From: Rhodococcus sp. CH91
GTDB taxonomy: Bacteria; Actinomycetota; Actinomycetes; Mycobacteriales; Mycobacteriaceae
Direction of reading: 5' to 3'
Length of the DNA stretch: 64,000 bases
Assembly: GCF_022554085.1 (NCBI RefSeq)
Contig: NZ_JAKFYR010000003.1
Coordinates: 354,074-418,073 of the forward strand
Shown: positions 18,456-39,438 of the stretch, one piece after another
How positions within the stretch are numbered: position 1 is the first letter of the stretch
How the letters are laid out: the number at the start of each line of letters is the position of its first letter
Notes under the pieces: model-generated
Database searches by the model: none
What the model saw: only the letters and a program-made list of their open reading frames with translations
Told to the model about the DNA's origin: nothing
Program-made: the position numbers and the translations under genes

Positions 18456-19328
18456 TCACCTTCCTCCCGTTCCGGTTCCGCCGCCTCGCTCCGCCACGAA
18501 CTCCTGCCAGTGGCGCGCGACCTCCGCAGGCCGTTCCTGATGCACGAAGGATCCCGCCTCGTCGATCGTCTCGATCCGGACATCGGGCAGGCTGTCGCGG
18601 GCACGCTCGTCGTAGGTGCGGTACGGCGCTCGCACACCGTTGACCACCAGTGTCGGCACCCTCACCTCGGGAAGCAGATGAGCCACACCCGTCAGGCCCA
18701 CGCCGCGTTCGGAGGGCCGCACCCACCGGCCGGCCGCGTGGCGCGAGAGGTCCTGCTCGGTGAGAATCCGGGGATCGTCGGTGGCGGCACGGTCGGCGGC
18801 GGCGGAGCCCAGGGACAGCGGCTCCCAGTCCGGGCCGAAGAGGTGCCGCACCGCACGGTCGTTGTCGAGGGTGCGTTCGAGGCTGTGTCTCTCCGTGAGG
18901 GACACCCCCACGAGGGCGAGCGTGACGACCAGTTCGGGACGGCCGACCGCCAGGTGCACACCGACGATGCCGCCCAGTGAATTGCCCATGACGTGAGCAC
19001 GTTCGATACCGAGCGCGGCGAGCAACTCCGCCACCCGGTTCGCGCTCGCGCTCGGAGGGTGCGCCCACGGGCTTCGCTCGTCCATCGTGGAACCACCGTG
19101 CCCGGGCAGGTCGACGGCCACGACGCGGTACCGCGCGGCGATCGGTTCCGCGACGTGCCGCCAGTCGGCGACCCAGCCGCCGAGTTTGTGCAACAGCACC
19201 ACCACCGGCGCTGCGGGATCACCGCGCTCACCGAGGTCCACATAGTGCAGCCACCCGTCCTCCGTACGTATCCGGCGACCGGTGACCTCCTCCCACAACG
19301 GCACCGGGTACGTATCTTCGCCCGTCAT
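18456..19328 (-). CDS. Alpha/beta hydrolase, last gene of catabolic unit A
   Basis: A 290-residue alpha/beta-hydrolase. The oxyanion region is VVVLLHKLGG and the nucleophile elbow is VMGNSLGGIVG (Ser near residue 120). The catalytic Asp is expected in the LVVNG region and the His in SFVHQERPAEV near the C-terminus. Its ATG overlaps the stop of the DUF3089 gene (ATGA), so it is translationally coupled. In the maleamate pathway of nicotinate degradation an alpha/beta hydrolase (NicD) deformylates N-formylmaleamate. This protein occupies a comparable setting next to an isochorismatase-type amidohydrolase and a racemase/isomerase-fold protein, but the reaction here is inference. C-terminal low-complexity GGGTGTGGR. 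Confidence 0.85.
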   Translation of the reverse strand: MTGEDTYPVPLWEEVTGRRIRTEDGWLHYVDLGERGDPAAPVVVLLHKLGGWVADWRHVAEPIAARYRVVAVDLPGHGGSTMDERSPWAHPPSASANRVAELLAALGIERAHVMGNSLGGIVGVHLAVGRPELVVTLALVGVSLTERHSLERTLDNDRAVRHLFGPDWEPLSLGSAAADRAATDDPRILTEQDLSRHAAGRWVRPSERGVGLTGVAHLLPEVRVPTLVVNGVRAPYRTYDERARDSLPDVRIETIDEAGSFVHQERPAEVARHWQEFVAERGGGTGTGGR

Positions 19329-20260
19329 CGCTCACCCTTCTGCTCTGCCGACCGCGCCGTCGCGCGACGGCGCCACTCCGCGGTCCTACGGCGCAGGTCG
19401 TCCCGGATGTTGCCTGCGAACAACTCGACGTCGATGCGGTGGAGGTTCCCGTGCGGGAGTGCGACCGCGTCGAGCGCTCCCTCACGGGCGGGCTCCACCT
19501 CGAGCACTCCGCCACGGCAGTGCGCGGCCACCCGCACGCCGTGGAGAGCGCACTGCGGGTCGTGTGCCGGACGGTGGGCGTGCGCCCCGGCCCCGGGGCG
19601 CACGGTGGTACCGGTGATCGGGTTGACGCACACGGAGTCACCGCCGACCGTTCCGGTAGCGGGCCGGCCGGCGAGCACGGACCTCCACCCGAGGGTGACA
19701 CCGGGAGCATGCGGCTCGCTCGGGGAGGGGAACATGGACAGGGCGAGTTTCCCTGCGGGAAGCGCGATCCCGATCGAGTAGACGGCGACGAGCCGCTCCG
19801 CGATGTCCGTCCTGGTGAAGTACTCCTCCACGAGCGACAGCACGTGCCGGGCGCCCTGGCTGTGGCCGGCGAGCACGATCGGCCCGGGCGGTCCCGGATG
19901 TGCCGCGTCGTGGTCGAGGAAGGCCGCGAACGCGGCGGACACGTCCGGATACGCGAGATCGTATGCCTCGACCCCGCCGCTCTCACGTTCGTGGAAGGCG
20001 CGCGTCGTCGCCTGCCGGTATCGCGGCGCCCACCACCGCCCCGGGAACGCGCCGAGTTGCCGTTCGGCGACCCGGGCCGTCTCCGCGGCGGTCCCCGGAT
20101 CGGTGGGATCACCGAACCAGCCGGGTCCGTGCGCCGTCGTCGGGTGGACGTAGAAGACGACCGGATCGTCGGAACTCCCCCGCGCGTCGTCGTGGTGCAG
20201 CCACGACACCGGATCCTGGTAGTCGAGCGCGAGGTCCGCGGCGAACTCGTCGAGGGGCAT
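19325..20260 (-). CDS. DUF3089 alpha/beta-hydrolase-fold protein
   Basis: A 311-residue DUF3089 protein, a family with an alpha/beta-hydrolase fold. The opening VVFYVHPTTAHGPGWF and the nucleophile elbow LAGHSQGARHVL (Ser near residue 136) are typical. The C-terminal third contains a Cys-rich stretch with GTVGGDSVCVNPITG and DPQCALHGV. The start is the ATG at 20260, overlapping the stop of the isochorismatase gene by one base; the longer frame has no family similarity. It is part of a chain of overlapping genes in unit A. It is probably a serine hydrolase or esterase acting on a pathway intermediate. No substrate can be inferred. Confidence 0.8.
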   Translation of the reverse strand: MPLDEFAADLALDYQDPVSWLHHDDARGSSDDPVVFYVHPTTAHGPGWFGDPTDPGTAAETARVAERQLGAFPGRWWAPRYRQATTRAFHERESGGVEAYDLAYPDVSAAFAAFLDHDAAHPGPPGPIVLAGHSQGARHVLSLVEEYFTRTDIAERLVAVYSIGIALPAGKLALSMFPSPSEPHAPGVTLGWRSVLAGRPATGTVGGDSVCVNPITGTTVRPGAGAHAHRPAHDPQCALHGVRVAAHCRGGVLEVEPAREGALDAVALPHGNLHRIDVELFAGNIRDDLRRRTAEWRRRATARSAEQKGER

Positions 20261-20922
20261 CACGGCCGTGGTCCGTCCGTCACGGCAGCCGGGGACAGCG
20301 CGGCGAGGTAATCCCGCACTTCGTCCAGGCCGTGCACTTCGCCGCATTTGGCAGCGATGTCGCGCAGATTCGACTCGTGCGGGTCCGGATGCCGGTCCCC
20401 CACCGCGTCACGCACCACGACCGGCACGAAACCGTGTTGCAGGCTGTCGAGGGCGGTCGCCCGAATGCATCCACTCGTCGAGAGACCTGCGAGGAGCACG
20501 GTGTCGACGCCCCTGGTGGTCAGCGACGCCGCGAGCGAGGTCCCCGCGAACGCGCTCGGATAGTGCTTCGTCACCACCGTCTCTCCGGCACGCGGTTCGA
20601 ATCCGGGTACGAAATCGGCGAGCGGATTGCCCGCGACGAAACATCGCAGCGCCGGAACCTTGCGGAAGAAGAGTCCCCCGAGCACCCCGTCGCCGTCGTC
20701 GTAGAGCACCCGGGTCAGGTAGATCGGGATGCCTGCGAGCGCCGCCAGTTCGCGCAGTTCGAGCATCGCCGCGACCTCACGTTCGACACCGGCGTACAGC
20801 GGTGACCGCGGTTCCGTGTAGGCGCGGGCCGGATCGACCACGACGAGCGCCGGCCGGGCCCCCGGTTCGAGTCGGCCGCCGAAACCGGCACGAGCGTAGT
20901 CCTCCGCGAGCAGGTCCGTCAC
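20260..20922 (-). CDS. Isochorismatase-fold cysteine amidohydrolase (N-carbamoylsarcosine amidase/maleamate amidase-like), copy 1
   Basis: A 220-residue cysteine hydrolase with all three catalytic residues: Asp in ALVVVDPARAY (residue 30), Lys in TVVTKHYPSAF, and the nucleophile Cys in LAGLSTSGCIRATALD. The TSGC[IV]RAT motif is the one seen in N-carbamoylsarcosine amidohydrolases and maleamate amidohydrolases (NicF) rather than isochorismatase proper. It releases ammonia, or ammonia and CO2, from a primary amide or carbamoyl group. GTG start overlaps the upstream Dabb stop (GTGA). A second member lies at 38761-39438 in unit C; the two share the catalytic motifs but differ elsewhere, so they probably act on different intermediates. 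Confidence 0.88.
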   Translation of the reverse strand: MTDLLAEDYARAGFGGRLEPGARPALVVVDPARAYTEPRSPLYAGVEREVAAMLELRELAALAGIPIYLTRVLYDDGDGVLGGLFFRKVPALRCFVAGNPLADFVPGFEPRAGETVVTKHYPSAFAGTSLAASLTTRGVDTVLLAGLSTSGCIRATALDSLQHGFVPVVVRDAVGDRHPDPHESNLRDIAAKCGEVHGLDEVRDYLAALSPAAVTDGPRP

Positions 20923-21245
20923 ACGTCCACCGATCCGGTCTCGACGACCTGCGAATCGTCGTACTGCACAAACGATTTCGATTCCAGCACCGGGCCGATG
21001 CGCTCCGTGACGACGGCGACGTGTGCGGGATGGGCACGGTAGGCAGCCCAGTCGTCACGGGAGCCGAATCGCATGTGGAAGCGCAGAGTGGCGTTGCCCT
21101 CGACCAGGCCGGCATCGCGCACGACCTGCGCCGACACCAGACCCTCGACGAGTTCGGGCAGCTCGAGCAGTCCGTCGGCGATCCGGCCGATGTGGTCGGA
21201 GGTCGCAGTGTGCACGAGGGTCAGGTGTCCGACATGGTTGAACAT
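20919..21245 (-). CDS. Dabb (stress-responsive alpha-beta barrel) protein
   Basis: A 108-residue dimeric alpha-beta barrel protein of the Dabb family, opening with MFNHVGHLTLVHTA. The family helix RIADGLLELPELV and the closing DDWAAYRAHPAHVAVV are present. GAAAGGGGAATC before the ATG at 21245 is a good ribosome binding site; a longer frame upstream lies inside the isomerase gene and is not real. Dabb proteins include ferredoxin-like cyclases (for example olivetolic acid cyclase) and small accessory enzymes in catabolic operons. It may act on, or bind, an unstable intermediate of the unit A pathway. Its own gene overlaps the next one by 4 bases. Confidence 0.8.
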   Translation of the reverse strand: MFNHVGHLTLVHTATSDHIGRIADGLLELPELVEGLVSAQVVRDAGLVEGNATLRFHMRFGSRDDWAAYRAHPAHVAVVTERIGPVLESKSFVQYDDSQVVETGSVDV

Positions 21246-21276
21246 GATTCCCCTTTCGATCTCGGGTCGAGCGGAG

Positions 21277-22017
21277 TCAGAAGCGTTCGAGGAGCGAACC
21301 GAATCCACTGATCTTGTCGTCGATTCCGTTGGTGCGCAGCGCGTGCCATATCGTCGCCGCATTGATCGCGACGACCGGCTTACCGAGTTCACGCTCGAGC
21401 TCCGCGGCGACGGCGATCGCCTCGAGGTTGGTGCCTGCCTGGATCAGCGCGTCGACATCCGGGCCGTCGACCTCGAGGAACGCCGCGCGCAGGGTCTCGG
21501 GCGTCTCGTCGGCGATCGAGGTGGCCGACGCCGAGCACAGACCGTGGATCGCGTGCACCTCGAAGCCGAGTTCGGTGAAGTAGGCCACGACCTGCTCGTC
21601 GCCCACCGGCTGATAGGGCGTGACGATTCCGATCTTCTTCGCCCCGAAGGCTGTCAGCGCTTCCGCGGCGGCCGTCGCTCCCGTGGTGACCCCGAGGCCC
21701 GTCAAGGCGCGGACGTTGTCCTCGAAAGCGGCGTTGCCTGCGACACCTCCCCAGAACGTCTCGGCGGACATACCCATCACAACGTACTCGGGTTCGCAGG
21801 TCATCACGATCTCGAGAGCGGAGGGCAGAGCCGCGTTGAGTCCTTCCCGGAACAACCCGAAGGCCTCGGCGGAATCCAGTGCGGGAGCGTCGATCATGAT
21901 GCGTCCGGTGTGCCATGAGCAGTCCTGCGGCCGGATCCGGTGGAACTCCCGCTCGACGGAGGTGTTGGTGGACGGGACGACGAGCGCGAACCGGCGCCCT
22001 TTCGGAGAGAATGTCAC
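21277..22017 (-). CDS. Maleate cis-trans isomerase/Asp-Glu racemase-fold protein lacking the catalytic cysteines
   Basis: A 246-residue protein of the Asp/Glu racemase superfamily, in the maleate isomerase/arylmalonate decarboxylase branch, recognisable from RFALVVPSTNTSVEREFH and the C-terminal ELGKPVVAINAATIWHALR. The canonical members use two Cys, one after the third strand and one in the C-terminal half. Here these regions read VVMGMSAETFWGG and ALIQAGTNLEAI, with no cysteine in either. A cysteine occurs at MTCEPEYV, before the first motif. The GTG start overlaps the stop of the monooxygenase-lyase gene (GTGA). It could be a lyase/decarboxylase variant or a pseudoenzyme, so maleate isomerase activity should not be assumed. 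Confidence 0.75.
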   Translation of the reverse strand: MTFSPKGRRFALVVPSTNTSVEREFHRIRPQDCSWHTGRIMIDAPALDSAEAFGLFREGLNAALPSALEIVMTCEPEYVVMGMSAETFWGGVAGNAAFEDNVRALTGLGVTTGATAAAEALTAFGAKKIGIVTPYQPVGDEQVVAYFTELGFEVHAIHGLCSASATSIADETPETLRAAFLEVDGPDVDALIQAGTNLEAIAVAAELERELGKPVVAINAATIWHALRTNGIDDKISGFGSLLERF

Positions 22018-24149
22018 GCGATGCTCCTCGCTCGGGTGGGGGTGGCGAGCAGTGCCGCCTGGGACAGTTGTTCGGGCTGGCCCATCAAGTCGGTGAAGGC
22101 CCGCCAGTGATCACCGGACCGTCCGGATTCCCCGGTGGCCCGGATCGTGTCGTAGGCCTGTGCGACGGCGTCGGCCGCGGCGAGGACCGGAGCCACGGGA
22201 TGGATGACGAGTGCGACGCCGCACTCGAACAGGATGCGCTCGGACGGCAACTGCGAATGATCGCCGGCCTCCGACAGACTGACCACCAGTGGAATCCCAC
22301 CGGTGACGTCGCGCAGGGCACGCAGGTCCGTCTCGGTGGTCACACCTTCGGCGAAGATCAGGTCCGCGCCGGCTGCGGCATACGCCCGCGCGCGGGTGAG
22401 GACCGCGTCGAAACCGTCGACCGTCAGCGCATCGGTGCGGGCGATGACGAGCATGGACGACCTCCGGGCACAGGCCATCTCGATCTTGGCGACCATCTCC
22501 TCCACCGGGACCAGTTCCTTGCCGGCGAGATGACCGCAACGCTTCGGGGCGAGCTGATCCTCGAGTTGCACCGCTGCCGCGCCTGCCGCCTCGAATCGGG
22601 CGATCGCGTCGCCCACCTGCAGGACGCCGCCGTAACCGGTGTCGCCGTCGACGATGAGGGGGATATCGCTCACGGCGGTGAGCCGTCGGACGTGCTCGGC
22701 CATGTCCGCCAGGCCGAGATATCCGAGATCGGGTCTGCCCAGCGCGACTGCGGATACCGCCGCCCCCGAGACATATCCGGCGCCGAAGCCGGATCGGCCG
22801 AGCGCGGCCATCGAGACGCCGTCGTAGACACCGGGCGCGAGAATCGGTCCGTAGCAGAGCTTCTCCGAAAGAACGCGCCCGGCCGGGCGTGCCGAGTCGG
22901 GCACCGAGCGCAGTTCGCGGGCCAGCCTGCCCAGGGTGATCCGCAGCGACGTGAACATCGCCGCGGTGCGCTGGTGTTCACGCTTGTCGAACAGATCCCG
23001 GTCCAGTGCCGACAAGCTGTCGGCGCGCGATGCGCGGGCGGTCGCATCGTCGTCGCGCATGGAGTCGTAGTTGTTCTGCGCACGTGCCTGCACGTGGTTG
23101 AGCGCCGCGTCGCGACGCAGTTCGCTGTACAGGGAGGCCGCATGTACGGGATCGGTTCCGGTGAGCGCGGCGTCGATGCATTCGACCGCGGCCCAGGCGT
23201 CGTGGATTCCGCTGTTCATACCCATGCCGCCGAGCGGGTTGTTGACGTGCGCGGAGTCGCCGGCGAGCAGGATCTGCCCGACCGCGAACGTCGAGGCGGC
23301 ACGCATGTTCACGGCGTAGATCGAGGCGTGGGCGACCTCGTAGGGGGTCGGTTGTGCCGCGATGCGCTGCAGTCGCGCTTCGATCACGTCGGGGTCGAGA
23401 GCGTGGTCGTCCGATTCCCCTTCGCGGATCGGGAACAGCACGCGCCAGTGGTTGGGGGTGCGCAGCAGCACACCCCATTCCTCCGGATCCGAGATGTACG
23501 AGACGTAGGCGAGATCGGGGAAATCGTCGCGGAATTCGTGCGTGGTGGAGACGACGAGGAATCGCTCGTCGTAGGTCCGTCCCTCGAACGACACTCCGAG
23601 CGACTTGCGTATCGCCGATTGTGCACCGTCGGCGGCGATCAGCCAGCGGGCGCGGATGGGGCGGTCGCGGTGCCCGCCCTCGAGGTGGATACGCACGTGC
23701 CGGTCGCCCTGTTCGGCTCGGGCGACCGGGCTCGAGAACCGCAGAGTGACATTGGGCATCGTCACCAGCACATCGTGGATGATGCGGGTGAGGTTGTTCT
23801 GCTCGCTCTGCAAGCGGTAGGGATACTTCGTCTCCCCTGCCAGCATCGTCATGTCCATCTCGCTGAGCACGGCGCCGGTGCGTTCCCGGTACTGGTAGAC
23901 AGGGGCTTTCAGTCCGACCTCGTGCAGGGCGTCGGCGACGCCGAGCCGATCGAGGAGTTCGAGGCTCGAGGGATGGAAGGTGGAGGCACGCGATTCGGCC
24001 GACAGCTCGTCGCCGGCTTCGAGGACGAGGACGTCGTGACCCATCTGCGCGAGGCGGAGCGCGGCGACCATGCCGACCGGGCCCATGCCCGCCACAGCGA
24101 CGGTGTGCATGTCGGGGAACGAAGGGTCGGGGGCAGCGTTAGCGGACAC
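22014..24149 (-). CDS. FAD-dependent monooxygenase fused to isocitrate-lyase/PEP-mutase-family lyase
   Basis: A 711-residue two-domain protein. Residues about 15-400 form a class A flavin monooxygenase: GMGPVG at 21-26, the DG motif (AADGAQSAIRKSLG) near 173, and the GD motif (LLAGDSAHVNNPLGGMGMN) near 297. Residues about 430-690 are an isocitrate-lyase/PEP-mutase (PEPM) barrel with DGDTGYGG (501-508) and PKRCGHLAGKEL, whose KRCGH (536-540) is the lyase rather than mutase signature. One enzyme hydroxylates an aromatic or heteroaromatic substrate with NAD(P)H; the other should break a C-C bond of a 2-hydroxy or 2-methyl dicarboxylate. GTG start with AAGGA upstream; it overlaps the nitrilase gene by 11 bases. 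Both active sites look intact. The fusion is unusual. Confidence 0.85.
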   Translation of the reverse strand: MSANAAPDPSFPDMHTVAVAGMGPVGMVAALRLAQMGHDVLVLEAGDELSAESRASTFHPSSLELLDRLGVADALHEVGLKAPVYQYRERTGAVLSEMDMTMLAGETKYPYRLQSEQNNLTRIIHDVLVTMPNVTLRFSSPVARAEQGDRHVRIHLEGGHRDRPIRARWLIAADGAQSAIRKSLGVSFEGRTYDERFLVVSTTHEFRDDFPDLAYVSYISDPEEWGVLLRTPNHWRVLFPIREGESDDHALDPDVIEARLQRIAAQPTPYEVAHASIYAVNMRAASTFAVGQILLAGDSAHVNNPLGGMGMNSGIHDAWAAVECIDAALTGTDPVHAASLYSELRRDAALNHVQARAQNNYDSMRDDDATARASRADSLSALDRDLFDKREHQRTAAMFTSLRITLGRLARELRSVPDSARPAGRVLSEKLCYGPILAPGVYDGVSMAALGRSGFGAGYVSGAAVSAVALGRPDLGYLGLADMAEHVRRLTAVSDIPLIVDGDTGYGGVLQVGDAIARFEAAGAAAVQLEDQLAPKRCGHLAGKELVPVEEMVAKIEMACARRSSMLVIARTDALTVDGFDAVLTRARAYAAAGADLIFAEGVTTETDLRALRDVTGGIPLVVSLSEAGDHSQLPSERILFECGVALVIHPVAPVLAAADAVAQAYDTIRATGESGRSGDHWRAFTDLMGQPEQLSQAALLATPTRARSIA

Positions 24150-25914: not shown

Positions 25915-26140
25915 AATATGCGACTCCATCATGCAGACTGTGGAATTCGACTATGCGCGCCTCAGGTTTCGTACTCATCTCCGTGGGAACTCCGCAGGTA
26001 ACAACCATGTGAACATGCCCGCCGTGATTGCTTGGGGGAACAGTGATTGCCACATTATGAGAGAGTTCACGATCCGGATCCGACGTAGACGCCCGCGATC
26101 GTTCACGCCACTTCGACCGGCCCCAGGAGAATCGACACCC
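25915..26140. promoter_or_regulatory. Divergent promoter region between unit A and the IclR gene
   Basis: 226 bases, clearly more AT-rich than the surroundings, between the nitrilase and IclR starts. It must hold both promoters. It contains TGATTGCCACATTATGA at 26044-26060, related to sequences in the promoter regions at 35341-35472 and 39439-39655, and GTGGAATTCGA near 25940. IclR-family regulators often bind such divergent regions. Confidence 0.6.
26044..26060. promoter_or_regulatory. Candidate cluster operator, copy 1
   Basis: TGATTGCCACATTATGA. The first eight bases recur exactly at 35375-35382, and CACATTATG recurs (as its complement) at 39506-39514. The three copies lie in the three promoter regions of the cluster. 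Candidate IclR site; no experimental support. Confidence 0.35.
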
Positions 26141-26920: not shown

Positions 26921-26925
26921 CGACA

Positions 26926-31251: not shown

Positions 31252-31253
31252 GC

Positions 31254-32345
31254 TTACTCCTGGATCGAGGGCTTGCGCGCCGTGGTGCCCATGGGATGGA
31301 AACCCGGTGCGAGTTCGAACTGTTCGACGTCGACGAAACCGGCCTGTTCCGCCACCTCGACGAGATCGAGGGTCGCGGAGGTGCGCCACCACGGTTCGTT
31401 GCCGTGTTCGGCATCCCAGTCGTCGTTCCATGCCTGGTAGGCGGGACGACGGTCGTAGCGGCCGACGTCGGCGAAGTGGACGTGCCCGCCCGGGCGGAGC
31501 AGCCGGAACGCCTCGGCGAACACTGCTCGGACCGCGTGCGGCGGCATCTCGTGGAGCAGGATGAACGAGGTGACCAGGTCTGCGGACGCATCGGGAAGAC
31601 CGGTGTCCTCCGCGGGTGCACGACGGAACTCCACGGTCGCTCCGGCATCCTCGGCCCGCCGCGCGGCGTAGGTGAGCTCCGCGCGGGACAGGTCCACGCC
31701 CGTGATCGACGCCCCGGGATAGGCCTCCGCGAGTTTCAGGGTGTACTGGCCCGTGCCACACCCGAGATCGACGATGTCGGTGTACGTCTCGGCCGGAGCA
31801 TCGCGGGCGAATGCGGCCCGTTGCGCGAAGATGTCGCCGTTCCCGCCGTAGACCTTGGTGAGCAGGTAGTGGTAGACGAGTTCGTGGTGGACGAACCCCA
31901 TCTGCTCGTGCCCGTCCCAGCCGCCGGTGGTGCCGTGGAACTCGTAGTTCCAGTAGCGCGGTGCGGTCTTCCCGTCCGCTTCGGTGACCGATGCCGAGGC
32001 GGGTACGGCCAGCGGCTCGAGCACACTGCGACGCCGCTCGAAGGCTGCCGTCGCGCGCGGTGTCGTGACGGTCCGGGTCCATCGACGTGCTGCCGACGAG
32101 AAGCGGTAGGAGGCGGACGCCTCGGCGATCGGATCCGCCGCCGCACGGGTCGCTGCGATGTCGGTGACCACGGCCGGCAGGACACCCGAGGCTTCCAGAT
32201 CCCGCCTCACCCTCGCGCGCAGACCCGACGAGGCGGTGGTGATGGTACGGACGAATTCCAGTTCGGCCCGCCCACGCTGGTCGACGAGTTCGCCCTTCGT
32301 ACGGACGGGGACGGGGTCGTCGACGATGGATCGGGTGGTCGTCAT
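31254..32345 (-). CDS. Class I SAM-dependent methyltransferase B, within the ABC importer operon
   Basis: A 363-residue protein with an N-terminal helical region of about 170 residues and a C-terminal class I methyltransferase domain. Motif I is IVDLGCGTGQYTLKLAE, the acidic post-motif GASITGVDLS, and motif IV DLVTSFILLHEMP. The N-terminal region includes PRYWNYEFHGTTGGWDGHEQMGF, whose counterpart in the second methyltransferase (34264-35340) is PQYWENEFHLTPGGWNGHDLMG; the two are clear paralogues along their whole length. ATG at 32345 follows GAAAGG. It lies between the importer lipoprotein and ATPase genes. The fused N-terminal domain is not one I can name. It probably methylates, or was recruited to demethylate or bind, the imported compound. 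Confidence 0.8.
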   Translation of the reverse strand: MTTTRSIVDDPVPVRTKGELVDQRGRAELEFVRTITTASSGLRARVRRDLEASGVLPAVVTDIAATRAAADPIAEASASYRFSSAARRWTRTVTTPRATAAFERRRSVLEPLAVPASASVTEADGKTAPRYWNYEFHGTTGGWDGHEQMGFVHHELVYHYLLTKVYGGNGDIFAQRAAFARDAPAETYTDIVDLGCGTGQYTLKLAEAYPGASITGVDLSRAELTYAARRAEDAGATVEFRRAPAEDTGLPDASADLVTSFILLHEMPPHAVRAVFAEAFRLLRPGGHVHFADVGRYDRRPAYQAWNDDWDAEHGNEPWWRTSATLDLVEVAEQAGFVDVEQFELAPGFHPMGTTARKPSIQE

Positions 32346-32379
32346 CGTTGTGCCTTTCTCGATCGGGGCGACGGGCGGG

Positions 32380-33921
32380 TCAGGACGTCTTGACCGCGTC
32401 GTCGAACAGCACCATCAGTCCCGAGGTGAAATCCATGCCGGAGATCGAGGTCGTCGTCGCGCCGATGCTCGGGCTGGAATAGGTCCACAGGACGAAGTCC
32501 TTGTCGTGGACGTACTCGCTGGCCTCGGCGATCTTCTTCCTCCGCTCGTCCTCGTCGAGTTCGGTGCGGGTCGCCTGATACAGCGCATCCCACGCCGGAT
32601 CGGCGACCATCGGGGCGGAGCCACGGGCGAGCTGGGAGAACGGGCGGTCCGCGTCGTACATACCGACATAGCCCAGACCCTTGTAGAAGATGTCGGCGCT
32701 GCTGCCCTCACGCAGCTGCTGCGACCACACGGCGATCTCGAGGGTTTCCACCGTCGGTGCGAAACCCACTTCCGCCAGCTGTGCACCGACGGCTTCGAGC
32801 AGCGACTTGTACATGCTCAGGCCGGCAAGCTTGATCTGCGCCCCTTCGGCACCGGCCTCGGCGAGCAGACGCTTCGCCTTCTCCGGATCGTAGGCGGGAC
32901 GGGCGATCGTGTCGGTATACCCGTTGATCACCTCGAGCGGAAGCTGGCCGTCCTCCTTCTGACCCGCGCCGTAGGTCAGCGCCTCGATGAGCTCGTCGAT
33001 GTTGATCGCCGCATTGGCCGCCTCGCGGACGCGCTCGTCGGCGAACGGACCGGAAACCGAATTGAACTGCATCATGTTCTGGCTACCACCGAACTCGTTG
33101 GTGAGAACAAAGTTCGGGTTCGTACCCACCGTCTTGATCGCCTGGATACCGAGCTGGTGCGCGACGTCGACCTGGCCGGATTCCAGGGCGGACGCGAGCG
33201 AGGTGGGATCACTGAAGTAGCGAAGGTCGATGTTCGGGGTCTTCGGCGCCTCACCCCAGTACCCCTCATAGGCGTGGAACATCACGCCGGTGTTGAGGTC
33301 GAACTCGCCGATCCTGTAGGGGCCGGTACCCACCGGGGCAGCTGCGAAGCCGTCGGGTCCGAGCTGTTCGTAGAGAGCTTTCGGAACGATCGAGACCTGT
33401 CCGACCGCGTTGAGCAGCAACGCATCCGGACCCTTGGTGGTGATCCGCACCGTCGCGTCGTCGAGCGCGGTCACGGCGTCGATACCGGTGAGCACGCTGG
33501 CCGTGACGAAGGATTCCTCGAGGATCTCGGTGAACGAGAAGACGACGTCGTCGACCGTCAGCGGCGTTCCGTCGTGGAAGGTCACGCCCTCACGGATCGT
33601 GAAGTCCCAGGTGGTGTCGTCGACGCGGTTCCATTCGGTGGCCAGTCCCGGCTCCGGGTCGCTGCCGCCGATGATGCGCACCAGGGATTCGAAGGCGTTG
33701 TACTGGGCCGTCTGGTACTGCATGTCGAGGGGGTTGAGCGCGCGGATCGAGATGGTCGAGCCGACGACGATGGTGTCGGCCGCGGCGGCACCACCGGAAG
33801 CGGAATCGGTACCCGGGGCGCACGCCGAGAGCAGCGCGGCGGACAGAGCGAGAGAGACTCCGGCGGTGGCGATCCGGCGTGTCCTCCGGCGGCGGAGGGG
33901 GGCAGGGATGATAGCGGTCAT
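32380..33921 (-). CDS. Peptide-type ABC importer, substrate-binding lipoprotein (SBP family 5)
   Basis: A 513-residue extracellular solute-binding protein of family 5 (DppA/OppA/NikA). It begins with an Arg-rich stretch (RRRRTRR) and hydrophobic core ending in the lipobox LLSAC (Cys near residue 33), so it is a lipoprotein anchored outside the membrane. The arginine cluster might direct it to the Tat pathway, but no canonical RRxFLK is present. The family motifs TTWDFTIREGVTFHDGTPLTVDDVVFSF and APVGTGPYRIGEF are intact. AGGAA precedes the ATG at 33921. It determines the importer's specificity, which cannot be read from sequence. Confidence 0.92.
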   Translation of the reverse strand: MTAIIPAPLRRRRTRRIATAGVSLALSAALLSACAPGTDSASGGAAAADTIVVGSTISIRALNPLDMQYQTAQYNAFESLVRIIGGSDPEPGLATEWNRVDDTTWDFTIREGVTFHDGTPLTVDDVVFSFTEILEESFVTASVLTGIDAVTALDDATVRITTKGPDALLLNAVGQVSIVPKALYEQLGPDGFAAAPVGTGPYRIGEFDLNTGVMFHAYEGYWGEAPKTPNIDLRYFSDPTSLASALESGQVDVAHQLGIQAIKTVGTNPNFVLTNEFGGSQNMMQFNSVSGPFADERVREAANAAINIDELIEALTYGAGQKEDGQLPLEVINGYTDTIARPAYDPEKAKRLLAEAGAEGAQIKLAGLSMYKSLLEAVGAQLAEVGFAPTVETLEIAVWSQQLREGSSADIFYKGLGYVGMYDADRPFSQLARGSAPMVADPAWDALYQATRTELDEDERRKKIAEASEYVHDKDFVLWTYSSPSIGATTTSISGMDFTSGLMVLFDDAVKTS

Positions 33922-33961
33922 GTCACGTTCCTGAGGGGTGGGAGAGGTGAGGTGCGGGTCG

Positions 33962-34267
33962 TCATCCGGCGACGTTGCCGAGAGCACGGTCCACTCGTTC
34001 GTGATGGTCGAGGACGGCACCGAAGACACGGGAGACGTACGCATCGCGTTCGGTGGCGAGCACTGCAGCTGTCTCGGCATCGGGCAGGTACCCGTCGAGC
34101 CGGGCCGGGTCGACGACTCCGGCCTCGGCGAGCATCTTCTCCAGAACGATGGTGCGGTCCTTGAGAATCCAGAGCTGCGAGGTGAGCTCCGAGACGACGC
34201 GGGCGAGATCGTCGAGGCGGTCCTCGGGGAGGTAGTTCGGTCGGGGAGCGGCGGGATTGACTGTCAT
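33962..34267 (-). CDS. Small helical protein A of unknown function, paralogue of the protein at 28849
   Basis: A 101-residue soluble protein, largely helical by composition. It shares with the protein at 28849-29133 the pattern P.YL..D near residue 11, S.LW..KDR...LEKML in the middle and ER...V.R.FG.V.D near the end. Its ATG overlaps the stop of methyltransferase A (ATGA), so the two are translationally coupled, which hints at a stoichiometric complex. A first-choice start upstream is not needed since MTVNPAAPRPNYL gives the conserved N-terminus. No database family comes to mind. The duplicated methyltransferase/small-protein arrangement is the least explained part of the cluster. Confidence 0.7.
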   Translation of the reverse strand: MTVNPAAPRPNYLPEDRLDDLARVVSELTSQLWILKDRTIVLEKMLAEAGVVDPARLDGYLPDAETAAVLATERDAYVSRVFGAVLDHHERVDRALGNVAG

Positions 34268-35340
34268 GTCGTTCGATCCTGTTGCGGTCGGTCGGGTTTG
34301 ACGGCGTGGGTGATCCACGGGAAGACACCTCCGTCGGCACCGTAGGAGGTCACGTCGACGAATCCGGCTCGCTCGAGCATTCCCACGAGATCCCGGCCCA
34401 GAGCTTCACGCCAGTACGGTTCACCCCGGTTCTCGGTCTCCCAGTCGAGGACCACGGCGTCGAAGGCCGAGTGCCGGTCGTAGGGCGCGACCTCGCCGAG
34501 CAGGAATTCACCACCCGGCTCGAGCAGGCGGAACGCCTCGGCGAGGATGGCCTCGGCCCCGGCGTCGGGGACCTCGTGGAAGAGCGAGAACATGGTGACG
34601 AGATCGGCTGTGCCGTCGGGGAGTCCGGTGTGCTCGATGTCGGCGTGCCGCCACTCGATGCCCTCGATGCCCCGGGCCTGCGCGGTGGCGATCCCGTGGC
34701 GCAACGAGCTCACAGCGAGATCGACTGCCGTCACGGGTGATCCCGGATAGGCCTTCGTCAGGGCGAAGGTGTAACGCCCGCTGGAGGCGCCGAATTCGAC
34801 GATGTGACGGTAGGACTCGCGATGCGCGGCCCTTGCGACGGTGGCCCGGTGGTCCTTGCGCGCCTGACCCGTCCGGACCGCGCCGACGCCACCCGGGACG
34901 AGAACGTAGTGGAAGACGAGCTCGGTGATGGCCGGGCCCATGAGGTCGTGCCCGTTCCATCCTCCCGGCGTGAGGTGGAATTCGTTCTCCCAGTATTGCG
35001 GTGGTACGACGTCGGGGTCCTCGACGAGTTGCCGGCCCGGCGGCGGCGAAGCGAGCCACGCCTCGACGGTGGGACGGATGCTCTCCACCGCGGGAAGTGC
35101 GCGTACGTACACTTCCTCGGCCACCCACCGGGTGAGGAATCGGTCGAACGCCCACGCCGGCGAGTCGGCGAGTACCTGCGCCACCGAGGCCCTGCGTTCG
35201 TCGAGAGCGGTCGGGGGCACCGGCACCGCCTCGTCGTACTCGCGCCGCGCGGTCGCCTGAAGGACGCCACCGCTGAATTTCTGTGTGGAGCCGAGGAATT
35301 CCAGGCCTGCCCGATGGGCTTGCCGAAGCCGAATATCCAC
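34264..35340 (-). CDS. Class I SAM-dependent methyltransferase A, first gene of unit B
   Basis: A 358-residue paralogue of the methyltransferase at 31254-32345. The N-terminal helical region contains PQYWENEFHLTPGGWNGHDLMG. The methyltransferase domain has motif I IVEFGASSGRYTFALTKAYPG, post-I VTAVDLAVSSL and motif IV DLVTMFSLFHEVP. The start is GTG at 35340 with GGAGGAA four bases before it. It is the first gene of unit B, following an AT-rich 132-base promoter region that shares an 8-mer with the IclR promoter region. Two such enzymes in one operon suggest two methyl-transfer steps or a heteromeric enzyme. The substrate is unknown. Confidence 0.8.
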   Translation of the reverse strand: MDIRLRQAHRAGLEFLGSTQKFSGGVLQATARREYDEAVPVPPTALDERRASVAQVLADSPAWAFDRFLTRWVAEEVYVRALPAVESIRPTVEAWLASPPPGRQLVEDPDVVPPQYWENEFHLTPGGWNGHDLMGPAITELVFHYVLVPGGVGAVRTGQARKDHRATVARAAHRESYRHIVEFGASSGRYTFALTKAYPGSPVTAVDLAVSSLRHGIATAQARGIEGIEWRHADIEHTGLPDGTADLVTMFSLFHEVPDAGAEAILAEAFRLLEPGGEFLLGEVAPYDRHSAFDAVVLDWETENRGEPYWREALGRDLVGMLERAGFVDVTSYGADGGVFPWITHAVKPDRPQQDRTT

Positions 35341-35472
35341 TGGGTTCCTCCGAACGAGAATGATGCTGCGGACCTGATTGCCGCTATGTGGATAGTTCTA
35401 CCGCACTATATGGCAGAGACGAACATCCGAGACTTAATGTTTACTTCTACGCAATAACTGCTTTTGCGCAGG
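35341..35472. promoter_or_regulatory. Promoter region of unit B
   Basis: 132 AT-rich bases between the MFS stop and the methyltransferase A start, both on the minus strand. It contains TGATTGCC (35375-35382, identical to 26044-26051), the palindrome CTATGTGGATAG (35384-35395) and CACTATATGGCA (35404-35415), close to the GCAATATGGCA at 39536-39546. Candidate regulator sites; the exact promoter elements are not defined. Confidence 0.5.
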
Positions 35473-36855
35473 TCACACCGGATTCGGTGAGCGGAGTCTG
35501 CCGAGCCCGAGCGCGACCACGTTGCCGATGCACAGAGCGCACCCTGTTCCCCCCACCACCAGGCCCAGAGCGGTCAGCGACAGACCTGTGGCACCGTCAC
35601 CGGAACCGGCGTCCATGGTGAACGCGACGATCACCGCGGAGAAGTTCGCCCCGACGAACTGCGCGGTGCGATACACCCCGCTGATACTTCCGGCATGGGA
35701 GGTCGGGACGGATTCGTGCAGACTGAGCTGATTGCCGAGATTGTTGAAACCGTTCGGTATTCCGAGCAGGACGCCGACCAGCACGAGCAGCCAGATCGGG
35801 CTTTCCGCATCGAGCACGCCGGCCATCATCGCACCGGCGACGAGGAGTGCGGTGGACCCGATGAGCAGCAACCACCGCGGCGACAGGCGTTTCGACAACC
35901 TCGTCGCGGCCATCGTCCCGAGCACCCCGACCCCGAAGACCGGAAACATGAGCAGGCCCGACACCAGAGGGCCGAGACCGCGACCGGCCTCGAACCACAC
36001 GGGCATTCCGTAGAACACGCAATAGAAGGCGGTGAAGGTGGCCATGCCCCGCAGACACGTCAGGGACAGCGCCGGATATCCGACCAGGAGCCGGACATCG
36101 ACGAAAGGCGTGCGGGCGTACCACTCCCGCAGGACGAACGCCCCGGCCGCCGCGATCGTCACCACCAGCAGCGGCCAGAGGGCGCGCCCGGGAAGTTCGA
36201 TCAGGAACACCAGCATGCTCACCAGGGTGGCGACGAACAGCAGTACACCGAGTGGGTCCAGCTCGCGCAGCGTACGTGCGATGCCGGGCCGGTCGGTCCG
36301 CGGCGGATCCGGAGGCACCGTCGACCACACCCACCACACCGAATTCAGAAGCAGGGGAACGTTGATCCAGAAGATCCCCTGCCATCCCATCCCCGCGACC
36401 ACGAGGCCGCCGAGTGCCGGCCCGAGGGCGGCGCTGGTCTGACCGCACACCGCGATCACGCCCAGCGCGGAGGCCGGCGCGGCCTTCCGTTCGGCCGCGA
36501 TCCGGCGGACGAGTGCCATCGCGGCCGGGAACTGGGCGGACGAGCCGAGTCCCAACAGCACCCGATCCGCGATCAGCCACCCCGTCGACGGCATGAACGG
36601 CCCGGCGAGGGTGGCGACCGCAACGATCGCCAGACCCCAGAGATAGACGCGACGTGCACCGAAGACATCGCAGAGACGGCCGGCGACCGGAGCCCCGACC
36701 GCTGCGGCGATGTACATCGACGAGATCAACCACGGTAACGACGACGAATCACCGAAATGTTGTGCGATGGACACCAGCGCCACCGCGATGAGAGCGGAGT
36801 TGAACCCTTGCAGTACCGTTCCCGAGCCGAGCGCGAACGCAAGCGAACGGGGCAG
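35473..36855 (-). CDS. MFS transporter (14-TM drug:H+ antiporter type) with no ordinary start codon
   Basis: A major facilitator of about 460 residues. TM1 begins LAFALGSGTVLQGFNSALIAVALV, followed by motif A-like GRLCDVFGARRVYLWG and fourteen or so hydrophobic segments typical of the DHA2 (EmrB/QacA) group. There is no ATG, GTG or TTG in frame between the end of the preceding gene and the middle of TM1; the first such codon would remove half of TM1. A CTG at 36855, three bases after GGGGGAG, gives a sensible N-terminus (LPRSLAFALG), so I use it. It is the last gene of unit C. It probably exports or imports a pathway compound. Start uncertain; family certain. Confidence 0.75.
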   Translation of the reverse strand: MPRSLAFALGSGTVLQGFNSALIAVALVSIAQHFGDSSSLPWLISSMYIAAAVGAPVAGRLCDVFGARRVYLWGLAIVAVATLAGPFMPSTGWLIADRVLLGLGSSAQFPAAMALVRRIAAERKAAPASALGVIAVCGQTSAALGPALGGLVVAGMGWQGIFWINVPLLLNSVWWVWSTVPPDPPRTDRPGIARTLRELDPLGVLLFVATLVSMLVFLIELPGRALWPLLVVTIAAAGAFVLREWYARTPFVDVRLLVGYPALSLTCLRGMATFTAFYCVFYGMPVWFEAGRGLGPLVSGLLMFPVFGVGVLGTMAATRLSKRLSPRWLLLIGSTALLVAGAMMAGVLDAESPIWLLVLVGVLLGIPNGFNNLGNQLSLHESVPTSHAGSISGVYRTAQFVGANFSAVIVAFTMDAGSGDGATGLSLTALGLVVGGTGCALCIGNVVALGLGRLRSPNPV

Positions 36856-36908
36856 GGACTCCCCCTGCCCCGCCGCTCGTGTCGCTGCTCGCCCCGTTGC
36901 CGGGGCGC

Positions 36909-37841
36909 TCAGAGCTCCGCCGCCTGTGCGGGGGTCAGGAACAGCACCTCGTCGCGTGCGGCGAGCTCGCCGAGCAGGCGATCGGCGACGTCGGCGTAAC
37001 AGGCCTGACCGAGAACCCAGCCGAACCAGTTCAGTCCGAGGAACCTGCCGCCGACGATATCCGCATCGGCGACGAGTCGGTCGACCGTGTCGTGGACGAG
37101 TTCCTCGTACGACAGGTACGGCAGGTTCCGCGTGTACATCGCGAACATGTCCTCGGTCTCCAGACCGAGTGGCACCGCCGTGAGTCCGGTCGCGCCACCT
37201 TCGAGCGGGACGGGCCGTTCGTCGGCGGGCCAGTCGCCGAACCAGGCGAATCCTTCCTCGGCGAGCAGTCGCGGAGTCCTCTGTGACTGACAGCGTTCCG
37301 GGGAGAACCATCCGGTCACGGCCGAACCGACGGCGGTTTCGACGGCCGCCTTCGATTCCCGGATGTAGGTCCGCTCCTGCTCCTCGGTCATCTGCGGACT
37401 CAGCACGAGAGTCGCAGCACGGCCGCGGCAGACGATCTCGGCGGCACGTGGTGCGACGGCGCGCGCCAGTCCCGGCATCCGGCTCACTCCGTACTCGTCG
37501 AGTGCGACCGCGGCCGGGACGCCGTGCTTCTCCGCGATGGACAGCAGCCGGAAGATTCCGACCGTGAGCCCGAAATCCCACTGGGACAGCCGGGCCACCT
37601 GACCTTTCGGGGGATTCGCTTCGCGGCCCACACCCCCGGCGATGTATCCGGGGCCGAAATCGCCCGACCCGAGCGTGTCCTGATAGTACGGCGCGTGGAG
37701 CACGAGACCCACCGCCAGCTTCTTACCCGGAGGCAGTTCGAGCGGCGGCCGGAAGCCGTCGTGGGTGATCGTGACGTCCGGGGCGAAAACCACGGCGTCG
37801 GAAGGATTGTCGATCAGTTTTGCAGCGTTCGATGTCGTCAT
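36909..37841 (-). CDS. Polysaccharide-deacetylase-fold protein lacking metal-binding histidines
   Basis: A 310-residue protein of the NodB/PuuE deacetylase fold, related to its upstream neighbour by the YWPGG/LPPGKK-VAVG(L/V) strand, the SQWDFGLTVGIFRLLSIAEKHGVPA segment and the barrel order. Where the neighbour has EIMSHG, this one has EIVCRG (Arg 139 for the metal His). Where the neighbour has THPFVSGQPH, this one has LNWFGWVLGQACY, losing both histidines. It therefore cannot bind metal in the usual way and is probably a non-catalytic partner. The ATG at 37841 overlaps the neighbour's stop (ATGA), supporting a complex of the two proteins. Confidence 0.75.
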   Translation of the reverse strand: MTTSNAAKLIDNPSDAVVFAPDVTITHDGFRPPLELPPGKKLAVGLVLHAPYYQDTLGSGDFGPGYIAGGVGREANPPKGQVARLSQWDFGLTVGIFRLLSIAEKHGVPAAVALDEYGVSRMPGLARAVAPRAAEIVCRGRAATLVLSPQMTEEQERTYIRESKAAVETAVGSAVTGWFSPERCQSQRTPRLLAEEGFAWFGDWPADERPVPLEGGATGLTAVPLGLETEDMFAMYTRNLPYLSYEELVHDTVDRLVADADIVGGRFLGLNWFGWVLGQACYADVADRLLGELAARDEVLFLTPAQAAEL

Positions 37842-38764
37842 GCGGGAACCTCGCCGGCACGAGCGGCGGCGTGTGCGACCTGCTCGTCGTAGAAGTGTTC
37901 GATGTAGTACTCGCTGATCTCCTCGGCGGTGGCGATCCAGATTCGCGGATCGCTGCGCAGATAATCGAAGATCTCCTCGATGTACCGGATCATGTGCGGT
38001 TGCCCCGAGACGAACGGATGGGTGGCGACACATGTCACGCGCGCCTGACCGTCCTCCTCGGCATCGCGCAGCAGGCGGCTCACCTGAGCCTTGGCCTGAT
38101 CGGCGAAGAACCGCCCGGTGTGGTTGCGCGTGGTGACGATCGGGAAGTCGTTGAGCATGAAGCTGTACGGGATCGACACCAGTTTGCGGTCGCCGGACGT
38201 CCGCAGCGGCCGTGGTTGCTCGTCGTGGATCCAGTCCGCGTGGTAGATCATCCCGTGCTCGGCCATGAGATCGCAGGTGGCATCGGTACCCGAAACCCGA
38301 GGGCCGAGCATGCCTTTGATGGGTTTTCCCCAATACTTCTGCGCGAGAGCCTGGTTGAGCCGGTAGAACTCGCTCTCCTGCTCGGCGTCGAGACCGAACA
38401 GCGGTCGCAGATTGGAGATGCCGTGGCTCATGATCTCCCAGTTCCTCTGCGCCATCGCATCCCGGATCTCGGGGAACTCCTCGAGGATCACCAGCGAGAG
38501 CGAGGCAGTGGAGGGGATCTCGTATTCGTCGATCGCGCGCAACATGCGCCAGAAACCCACGCGGTTACCGAATTCCCGGTGGAAGTAGTGCTGGGGATCG
38601 GGGCTGAGCGCGCGACCGGTGGGCCCGCCCCCGCCGGGCGCGACGAAGTCGTAGTGCTCGACGTTGGGGGCGTGCCAGACGGCGACGGTCTTCCCGCCCG
38701 GCCAGGTGACACGCGGCCTGTCGATGATGGGACTGTAGACGAGACGTTCGTTGGACGAGATCAC
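37838..38764 (-). CDS. Polysaccharide-deacetylase-family hydrolase (PuuE/allantoinase-like)
   Basis: A 308-residue member of the NodB-type deacetylase superfamily, closest in pattern to the group of small-molecule amidohydrolases such as PuuE rather than true chitin or peptidoglycan deacetylases, as there is no signal peptide. It opens with RPRVTWPGGKTVAVWHAPNVEHYDF. The metal-site motifs EIMSHGISN (His 114) and THPFVSGQPH (His 249, His 257) are intact. GTG start overlaps the stop of the amidohydrolase gene upstream (GTGA). It probably hydrolyses a cyclic or linear amide of the pathway compound in the cytosol. Substrate unknown. Confidence 0.8.
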   Translation of the reverse strand: MISSNERLVYSPIIDRPRVTWPGGKTVAVWHAPNVEHYDFVAPGGGGPTGRALSPDPQHYFHREFGNRVGFWRMLRAIDEYEIPSTASLSLVILEEFPEIRDAMAQRNWEIMSHGISNLRPLFGLDAEQESEFYRLNQALAQKYWGKPIKGMLGPRVSGTDATCDLMAEHGMIYHADWIHDEQPRPLRTSGDRKLVSIPYSFMLNDFPIVTTRNHTGRFFADQAKAQVSRLLRDAEEDGQARVTCVATHPFVSGQPHMIRYIEEIFDYLRSDPRIWIATAEEISEYYIEHFYDEQVAHAAARAGEVPA

Positions 38765-39438
38765 GACGATCGTCCCGTGACGGCGTGCGCGGCGCGTGCC
38801 CGGGCCAGCGCTGCGAGGCGCTCCATCGTCTCGTCCTTGGTCACGATGTCGGCGTAGCGGTCCTGCATGTCCCACAGGGCCACCTCGCCGGACAGGGTGC
38901 GGAAGTCGTCGACGCACTCCTCGACGACGCTCACCCGGTAGTTCCGGTAGGCGGCGTCGACCACGGTGGCCCGGACGCAGCCGCTCGTGCTGGTGCCGGT
39001 CACGATGATCTCGTCGACACCGAGCGACTGCAGCAGATCGTGGAGCCGGGTCTCGTAGAAGCCGCTCGCCACCGTCTTCTCGACGACGTGGTCGGTCTCG
39101 GAGACCGGGAGCAGCGGGTGCATCTCGGTCCAGGGATTGCCCCGCTCGCACACCTCGGTCAGGCTCGACCGCACTCGCTGTGCGAGCATCCGATCGTCCA
39201 GGGAATCGAGGATCACCACGAGGAAGACCACGGGCACATTCGCTGCACGGGCCGCGTCGAGCAGTTCGGCAGTGTGGGTGACGGCGTCGAGCGCGGTGGA
39301 TCCGCACTTCTCGTGCTGAGTGAACGCCTTCTGGAAGTCCACTACGACGACGGCCGGGTTCTCACCGGGTCCGATCCGGGTCCTCGCTGCGCGCAGGGCA
39401 CGGATGCCGGCTACTTCTTCGTTCCAATCGACGGTCAT
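38761..39438 (-). CDS. Isochorismatase-fold cysteine amidohydrolase (N-carbamoylsarcosine amidase-like), copy 2
   Basis: A 225-residue cysteine hydrolase with the complete triad: Asp in AVVVVDFQKAFTQ (near residue 33), Lys in HVVEKTVASGFYET and Cys in TGTSTSGCVRATVVDA. The TSGCVRAT motif is characteristic of N-carbamoylsarcosine amidohydrolase-like enzymes. GAGGAAATC precedes the ATG at 39438. It is the first gene of unit C and is followed with a 4-base overlap by the deacetylase-family genes. It should release ammonia (and CO2 if a carbamoyl group) from a linear intermediate. It is a distant paralogue of the protein at 20260-20922. Confidence 0.88.
   Translation of the reverse strand: MTVDWNEEVAGIRALRAARTRIGPGENPAVVVVDFQKAFTQHEKCGSTALDAVTHTAELLDAARAANVPVVFLVVILDSLDDRMLAQRVRSSLTEVCERGNPWTEMHPLLPVSETDHVVEKTVASGFYETRLHDLLQSLGVDEIIVTGTSTSGCVRATVVDAAYRNYRVSVVEECVDDFRTLSGEVALWDMQDRYADIVTKDETMERLAALARARAAHAVTGRSS

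Follow-up and report, generated by a model that had tools for sequence, protein, structure and literature searches.

The maleamate pathways for nicotinate and 2,5-dihydroxypyridine (nic, vpp, and pic) unite in one cluster a flavin monooxygenase (FMO), an isochorismatase-fold amidase, and an Asp/Glu-racemase-fold protein. Proteins of these three kinds are also encoded together in an island of 21 genes at positions 18456–39438 of a 64,000-nucleotide stretch from Rhodococcus sp. CH91 (contig NZ_JAKFYR010000003.1, positions 354,074 to 418,073 of the forward strand; we call the whole stretch the window and number positions from its first letter). The island's amidase ICH1 keeps the D-K-C triad in 47/47 homologues (active-site counts throughout cover homologues from the compared loci, the window's own protein included). 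Unlike the maleamate pathways, the island has no recognized ring-cleaving dioxygenase, its racemase-fold protein lacks the catalytic cysteines, and it adds a fused lyase, a tandem nitrilase, a peptide-type importer, and methyltransferases.

In Aspergillus nidulans, the hxn system employs FMOs, then HxnM, a PuuE-related hydrolase that opens a cyclic imide, and then an amide hydrolase (PMC9304392), a series to which the island has counterparts by family, the imide hydrolase being a candidate one; the hxn system, however, is eukaryotic, uses a different amidase, has no lyase of the island's kind, and ends in 2-hydroxyglutarate. The island's lyase domain resembles the 2-methylisocitrate and 2,3-dimethylmalate lyases in keeping the KxCGH motif (29/29, counting the window domain and separately encoded lyases, with other fused copies outside the count), in scoring 223.5 bits against the prpB model of NCBIfam, and in matching the dimethylmalate lyase structure 3fa3, but it differs from methylisocitrate lyase in falling below the equivalog cut-off of 354.4 bits and in being fused to an FMO.

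The island is a real, single, acquired unit and not an accidental grouping. It combines known enzyme families in an undescribed way: searches of open-access papers listed no description of this gene set, which agrees with the original prediction, made from the letters alone, whose author knew of no described pathway containing it. The outline given there, of about 20 minus-strand genes in three units plus a plus-strand IclR gene, was borne out by gene calling and family scans, as were the families named (two isochorismatases; two PuuE-type deacetylase folds, one more diverged; a tandem CN_hydrolase; an FAD_binding_3 plus PEP_mutase/PrpB fusion; an AMDase/EutA racemase fold; Dabb, DUF3089, and alpha/beta hydrolase proteins; OppBCDF with SBP_bac_5; a DHA2-type major facilitator superfamily [MFS] transporter; and two methyltransferases). 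Twenty genes lie on the minus strand. Unit A comprises, in order of position, an alpha/beta hydrolase, a DUF3089 protein, the isochorismatase-fold protein ICH1, a Dabb protein, an EutA-like protein, the FMO–lyase fusion, and the tandem nitrilase; unit B, OppC, OppB, the small protein U94, OppF, OppD, the methyltransferase MT1, a binding protein, the small protein U118, and the methyltransferase MT2; and unit C, the DHA2-type MFS transporter, the protein DAC2, a PuuE-type deacetylase-fold protein, and ICH2. Of the 17 junctions within units, nine have the 1–4-base overlaps that had been noted for most genes, one of these hinging on the MFS start, whose position is approximate; the rest are one 11-base overlap and seven gaps of 6–59 bases. 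Two features go beyond that earlier reading: the small proteins encoded at 28849–29133 (U94) and 33962–34267 (U118) are paralogous, and the second half of the nitrilase lacks its catalytic Cys.

The island entered as a single insertion and was horizontally acquired. It fills the interval 18415–39655 between convergent genes for a glyoxalase, which ends at 18414, and phosphoenolpyruvate carboxykinase (PEPCK; minus-strand open reading frame 39656–41596), and the cluster boundaries are the insertion boundaries. Among 18 genomes of the genus, the window's own counted, all carry PEPCK and 14 the left-hand glyoxalase. The two flanking genes lie near each other, and convergent, in nine of the other 17 genomes; the unaligned gap between them measures 54, 83, 92, 88, 94, 111, and 86 bp in seven relatives and 21.2 kb in the window genome, where it contains exactly the cluster. 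In the remaining eight genomes the glyoxalase is missing (four) or is 50–53% identical and on a different contig (three), or PEPCK is on a different contig (one). Because the unaligned DNA in this gap reaches 2055 and 414 bp in the other two of the nine relatives (L138 and L139), the site may be open to repeated insertions. The G+C content is 67.3% in the island, 69.5% on its left side, and 68.6% on its right, and no integrase was found among the genes called. Within the genus the full FMO–lyase fusion was found in the window genome alone (2/18 genomes have any match at 1e-80, the other being a 42% FMO homologue only). An order-level scan with the fusion matched 9/397 genomes at 1e-80, seven through the FMO part only, and plasmid searches returned no record covering 80% of the fusion and no match to MT2.

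The three units had been proposed as one cluster, a proposal to be given up if they were not co-conserved; across genera units A and B pass this test, and unit C accompanies them in some clusters only. Eighty-five loci were compared: 80 from species genomes scanned with the fusion, the best of 235 encoding a relative; one from the order-level scan (L085); and four plasmid stretches. All except L075 have gene calls (84 loci), predicted with a simple GC-based caller. Ten loci carry IclR (a homologue of the window's regulator in 10/10), nitrilase, FMO, lyase, and EutA-like genes together with methyltransferase genes and binding-protein or importer genes; we call these window-type. They come from Rhodococcus sp. 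IEGM 1379 (L006), Nocardioides gilvus (L008), Kineosporia babensis (L009), Arthrobacter citreus (L016), Nocardiopsis (L019, L022, L024, and L027), Actinocorallia populi (L032), and Thermomonospora echinospora (L050), seven named genera in all, and genome G1061 supplies an eleventh cluster. Units A and B are conserved together in all 11, with the importer wherever the loci extend to it: the four Nocardiopsis loci stop short of the importer genes, and a longer stretch (L120) shows them for L022. Counts of MT1, MT2, U94, U118, and ICH2 in these loci reflect best hits, with second-best hits outside the count. ICH1 is a best hit in all window-type loci except that of Rhodococcus sp. IEGM 1379, where tblastn finds it at 72%. 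Unit C, by contrast, is complete in 3/11 clusters (K. babensis, A. citreus, and G1061), with ICH2 alone in Rhodococcus sp. IEGM 1379, and the tail of unit A (DUF3089 protein and alpha/beta hydrolase) occurs, among the ten loci, in N. gilvus only. Unit C is an optional module. In K. babensis and A. citreus, nevertheless, genes for the nitrilase, fusion, EutA-like protein, Dabb protein, ICH1, ICH2, PuuE-type protein, DAC2, and MFS transporter stand in a single run, and this run connects unit C with unit A. Six loci (those of Nocardiopsis, A. populi, and T. echinospora) encode the lyase as a gene of its own, so that the fusion in the window links the FMO and lyase functions.

The best signature of the cluster is the pair U94 and U118, paralogues by alignment of about 100 residues each. 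A profile of the family, scored on the 12 best first-look candidates per genome, found it in 5/394 genomes of the class (the window's included), with two copies each, about 5 to 6.6 kb apart, and all five pairs sit inside this cluster type. U118 is modeled by AlphaFold as a helical hairpin (predicted local distance difference test score [pLDDT] 79.5, predicted template modeling score [pTM] 0.45) and has no PDB fold match at E ≤ 0.001. Adjoining its cluster, K. babensis has an extra MT2–U118 pair beside a GntR gene, and locus L021 has MT2–U118 with the core genes but a different importer.

The island also has a common operator-like pattern. A palindromic 15-bp motif was learned by expectation-maximization from 15 upstream regions of other clusters, the window excluded (consensus TNCCACANTGTGGNA; log-likelihood 138.8 vs. 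45.0, 51.0, and 41.6 in three shuffles). Its four highest-scoring sites in the window, at 25909, 39563, 26048, and 39503, all lie upstream of units A and C. A tandem IclR-type operator candidate with a 22-bp step stands at the start of unit A (25909–25945; sites at 25909, 19.9 bits, and 25931, 10.8 bits), an additional candidate lies in the divergent region between unit A and the IclR gene (26048–26062; 18.7 bits, also matched by the whole-genome pattern below), and three candidates precede unit C (39503–39577; 39503, 15.0 bits; 39532, 10.3; 39563, 19.6). The tandem candidate upstream of unit B (35379–35415; sites at 35379 and 35401, again with a 22-bp step) is weak, at 8.8 and 8.3 bits and window ranks 11 and 13. 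Five sites in the window reach at least 12 bits, four of them inside the three upstream regions (shuffles expect 0.9), and of the 14 site pairs at most 60 bp apart in 18 regions, 10 are spaced 21 or 22 bp, the unit B pair included. A degenerate pattern derived from the window's own four best sites, and so informative solely as an absence of further matches, has no other match in the 4.89-Mb genome, and the reversed control has none. A comparison of 15-mers shared by the three upstream regions was suggestive and is superseded by the held-out motif test. That units A and C are under one regulator is well supported, and it is probably this IclR-family protein (26141–26920, plus strand; PF01614 and PF09339) that binds the operator candidates; unit B, by its site spacing, may belong to the regulon too. 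The island is very probably one regulon.

We read the whole as one acquired island that serves, under IclR control, the catabolism of a nitrogen-containing ring compound (a lactam, an imide, or a hydroxy-N-heteroaromatic), with a probability of roughly 55%. Its observed part consists of the single insertion, the co-conservation of units A and B, the common operator-like pattern (strong for A and C, weak for B), the protein families, and the states of the active sites. The original proposal of a system that takes up and degrades a nitrogen-rich compound is supported, with IclR at its center and a cyclic compound as the probable kind; the methyltransferases are no proof of the methylated substrate that was also considered.

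In the route we propose, the ATP-binding cassette (ABC) importer of peptide/nickel type in unit B would take up a medium-sized substrate. This Opp/Nik-type importer is complete in the unit B operon, with a solute-binding protein that has a lipoprotein-like start (32380–33921, minus strand like all units; start possibly at 33921; PF00496, 237 bits), two permeases (OppC type, 26981–27916, and OppB type, 27916–28842; both PF00528), and two ATPases (OppF type, 29144–30187, and OppD type, 30184–31194; both PF00005 and PF08352). U94/U118 and the two S-adenosylmethionine (SAM) methyltransferases, MT1 with an N-terminal extension (31254–32345; PF13649, 89 bits) and MT2 with a helical N-terminal domain (34264–35340; PF13649; model pLDDT 88.7), might modify or hold the substrate. 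Both methyltransferases carry a conserved FHxTxGGWxGHxxMG-like stretch before the Rossmann domain, and a fold search with MT2 gave generic methyltransferases only, at a template modeling score of about 0.4–0.5 over the query.

Ring attack would fall to the class A FMO, which is fused to the methylisocitrate/dimethylmalate-lyase-type domain (22014–24149; PF01494 and PF13714). Its nearest PDB match is PnpA (196.8 bits), followed by HspB (156.6 bits); both enzymes hydroxylate a ring carbon bearing a leaving group, and the island's FMO could likewise hydroxylate an electron-rich carbon of the ring, possibly expelling a side chain, to give an imide or amide. Where unit C exists, the PuuE-type deacetylase-fold hydrolase (37838–38764), a candidate cyclic imide hydrolase, would open the imide, a step for which HxnM sets a precedent. 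The protein scores 83.8 bits against TIGR03212 (curated cut-off 424.6), and its PDB matches are deacetylase-fold entries, the PuuE allantoinase 3cl6 (E 3.2e-13) among them; next to it, DAC2 (36909–37793; PDB 3s6o, E 1e-12) is a diverged PuuE/deacetylase-fold protein. The cysteine amidohydrolases ICH1 (20260–20922; PF00857) and ICH2 (38761–39438; PF00857, 129.7 bits; triad in 3/3) and the tandem nitrilase-type amidase (24139–25914, start possibly at 25914; PF00795 in two stretches) would strip ammonia from half-amides. The E-K-C residues of the first nitrilase half are intact in 40/40 homologues, and in the second half the catalytic Cys is replaced in 40/40 (Gly in 39, Asp in one), distant homologues included. 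The best PDB chain for ICH1 is N-carbamoylsarcosine amidohydrolase 26st (E 4.9e-45), then 3ot4 (120 bits), which we take to be NicF. The fused lyase domain, whose nearest PDB matches are a phosphorylmutase-named entry (162.1 bits) and methylisocitrate and dimethylmalate lyases, would split a substituted malate-type acid into a 2-oxo acid and a carboxylic acid. This step gains support because aconitase-family genes adjoin the lyase gene in three loci (L018, L020, and L082); in Eubacterium barkeri a substituted-maleate hydratase is paired with dimethylmalate lyase. Downstream of the T. echinospora cluster lie genes for CoA-transferase III, cyclase, MmgE/PrpD, amidohydrolase, HpcH/HpaI lyase, and FAD_binding_2 proteins, families that are also represented in the Nocardiopsis loci. 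The IclR protein probably represses the units as long as no intermediate is bound.

The EutA/AMDase-type protein (21277–22017) shares its fold and Tyr135 with arylmalonate decarboxylase (AMDase), maleate isomerase, and EutA; the tyrosine aligns with AMDase Y126 and is present in 50/50 homologues. Its best matches are maleate isomerases, but that function was rejected because both catalytic cysteines are missing: M83 and G195 stand at the two positions, and neither Cys is found in 48/50 homologues (the two exceptions, in L039 and L061, have both and are diverged paralogues). AMDase was rejected as well. At the positions of G74, T75, S76, Y126, C188, and G189, which PMC4996985 counts among the AMDase criteria, the protein has M, S, A, Y, G, and T, so that G74, S76, C188, and G189 are replaced and only Y126 and the Ser in place of T75 fit. 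Its score against the EutA model TIGR02990 is 101 bits (cut-off 318); EutA itself is a proposed 5-hydroxyectoine racemase (PMC5924519). Two alphaproteobacterial plasmids, L096 (NZ_CP140001.1 542813–549475) and L095 (CP155823.1), carry a reduced set of FMO, "arylmalonate decarboxylase," isochorismatase, and short-chain dehydrogenase/reductase genes, with an additional isocitrate lyase/PEP mutase gene in L096; in this clade the decarboxylase label is probably a misnomer.

Several observations weigh against a catabolic island for a nitrogen-containing ring. PnpA, the nearest relative of the FMO, acts on a nitrogen-free ring, so that a plain phenol could be the substrate. It is hard to see what the methyltransferases would do in a catabolic route, and the order of steps given above is guesswork. 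The imide hydrolase belongs to the unit that is complete in only three of 11 clusters; moreover, a PuuE search at 1e-20 found it in genome G1061 and not in the whole genomes G852, G869, G990, G374, and G008, and among other window-type cases tested it is absent from the whole genome in 3/4. Opening of an imide is then not the universal step. With regard to regulation, the unit B sites are weak and are not matched by the degenerate whole-genome pattern, 6/14 of the best window sites fall outside the three upstream regions, and at a threshold of at least 9 bits (nine sites in the window, six of them inside these regions) shuffles already give 4.55.

The boldest reading, partly nested in that of a lactam, imide, or N-heterocycle as substrate, is a tentative one and in our view rather doubtful: the FMO, tandem nitrilase, lyase, Cys-less EutA-like protein, and NicF-like amidase may be part of an aerobic bacterial pathway that mineralizes linear tetrapyrroles or their fragments (bilins, phyllobilins, or disubstituted maleimides). 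In 21 of the 84 gene-called loci, from Actinomadura, Streptomyces, Nocardia, Dactylosporangium, and Mumia (L026, L028, L033, L046, L066, and 16 more), the FMO occurs with a family, joined by BLAST linkage, that resembles red chlorophyll catabolite (RCC) reductase; 6/6 scanned members exceed the Pfam RCC reductase cut-off, and a profile of 11 of the proteins had, at E 0.01, no PDB matches other than RCC reductase (best E 1e-18) and, at E 7e-9, a ferredoxin bilin reductase. Like the island, these sister clusters, each delimited to roughly 10 kb on both sides of the FMO, carry an FMO and a tandem nitrilase in 21/21 loci; unlike it, they add bilin-reductase-superfamily proteins, a Rieske oxygenase (21/21), and aldehyde dehydrogenases. 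They are candidate tetrapyrrole catabolic clusters, and because RCC-reductase-like proteins accompany the FMO and tandem nitrilase in them, fragments of tetrapyrroles deserve serious consideration as the island's substrate. The odds are reduced because EutA, ICH1-type, and PrpB-type lyase genes occur in just 4, 8, and 5 of the 21 loci; homologues of the methyltransferases, U94/U118, OppB, and the solute-binding protein were found in none of the 21 as cut. Sister operons often also carry a flavin reductase and an acyl-CoA-dehydrogenase-like protein alongside the aldehyde dehydrogenases. A second sister-cluster gene gives marginal matches to the bilin-reductase superfamily (E 0.09 and 0.02), a hydrolase scores 26.0 against Chlorophyllase in L026 (cut-off 26, with another family preferred) and 11.4 in L028, and the Rieske protein is VanA-type, with the PaO family not among the matches listed.

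RCC reductase itself was found in 2/396 genomes of the phylum, both copies at most 20 kb from a tandem nitrilase of the island type. One of the two loci is also near EutA, FMO, ICH1, CoA-transferase, cyclase, and MmgE/PrpD genes; the other has no FMO within the 20 kb examined. RCC-reductase-like genes occur elsewhere in 2/8 genomes with window-type clusters (G869 and G990) vs. 2/396 (Fisher p 0.002, for few, hand-chosen genomes with the window's own among the eight), and there is none in the window's own genome. These associations suggest a chemical link between the enzymes and tetrapyrroles, which does not thereby identify the island's own substrate. In such a pathway the island would take imported pyrrolinone or imide fragments; ipso-hydroxylation of a 5-substituted 2-hydroxypyrrole would yield an imide, and opening and deamidation would lead to a 2,3-disubstituted maleate or malate for cleavage by the lyase. 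Paper searches on maleimides and RCC reductase listed nothing relevant.

Catabolism of a ureide, hydantoin, or purine, with the PuuE-type protein as an allantoinase- or hydantoinase-like enzyme, ICH1 and ICH2 as N-carbamoyl amidohydrolases, and the EutA-like protein as a ureide racemase, is unlikely. PuuE family membership, the N-carbamoylsarcosine amidohydrolase match of ICH1, and the IclR regulator would all suit it. The urate hydroxylase HpxO is indeed among the NCBIfam matches of the FMO, but at 73 bits vs. 170–199 for other FMO families; the proposed racemase lacks both cysteines in nearly all homologues, a methylisocitrate-lyase-type domain has no role in ureide breakdown, and family scans recognized no further purine gene in the island. 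We consider a variant of the nicotinate maleamate pathway quite improbable. The FMO would then correspond to NicC/HspB, ICH1 to NicF, the EutA-like protein to NicE, and the alpha/beta hydrolase to NicD, correspondences favored by HspB as the second best flavin-enzyme match in the PDB, by the 3ot4 match of ICH1, and by the maleate isomerases that head the matches of the EutA-like protein. Such a variant, however, has to do without the maleate isomerase cysteines and, among the 21 genes, without any recognized 2,5-dihydroxypyridine dioxygenase or molybdenum hydroxylase, and it leaves a lyase and a nitrilase over.

Very little speaks for biosynthesis or tailoring of a small molecule followed by export. 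FMOs, methyltransferases, and DHA2 MFS transporters are at home in secondary metabolism, the island's MFS transporter is of the DHA2 efflux type, and the methyltransferase model partly resembles the natural-product methyltransferases SgvM and DnrK; yet no core biosynthetic enzyme was recognized among the 21 genes, the importer is complete, several amidase-type hydrolases and a lyase are present, and aldehyde dehydrogenases, Rieske oxygenases, and binding proteins of carboxylate type are encoded in related clusters. An accidental grouping of unrelated operons could account for relatives that mostly lack unit C and the DUF3089 tail, but it is scarcely credible given the single empty site, the conservation of A and B across genera, the common operator pattern, and the run in L009 and L016 in which unit C directly follows ICH1. 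A role in anti-phage defense was rejected, there being one marginal match (20 bits) among seven proteins.

The other genes of the island are the alpha/beta hydrolase at the tail of unit A (18456–19328; PF12697, 65.8 bits) and the DUF3089 alpha/beta hydrolase-like protein (19325–20260; PF11288, 125.8 bits), both accessory; the Dabb A/B-barrel protein (20919–21245; PF07876, with a weak PDB match to 3bgu); and the DHA2-type MFS transporter (35473–36912, 5' end approximate; PF07690, 171 bits). Elsewhere in the same genome, a smaller second FMO–EutA–IclR set with its own peptide-type importer (L126; positions 110–7356) sits at the end of contig C17, which is 12,985 bases long.

The island defines a transferable catabolic module whose parts bear only generic family names. 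It offers an oxygenase and a lyase joined as two domains of one protein, a family of small proteins that in 394 genomes of the class turned up nowhere but in this cluster, and an operator pattern. We know of no described bacterial pathway for the breakdown of chlorophyll or haem catabolites; if the tetrapyrrole reading is true, the island would point to genes for that breakdown in bacteria.

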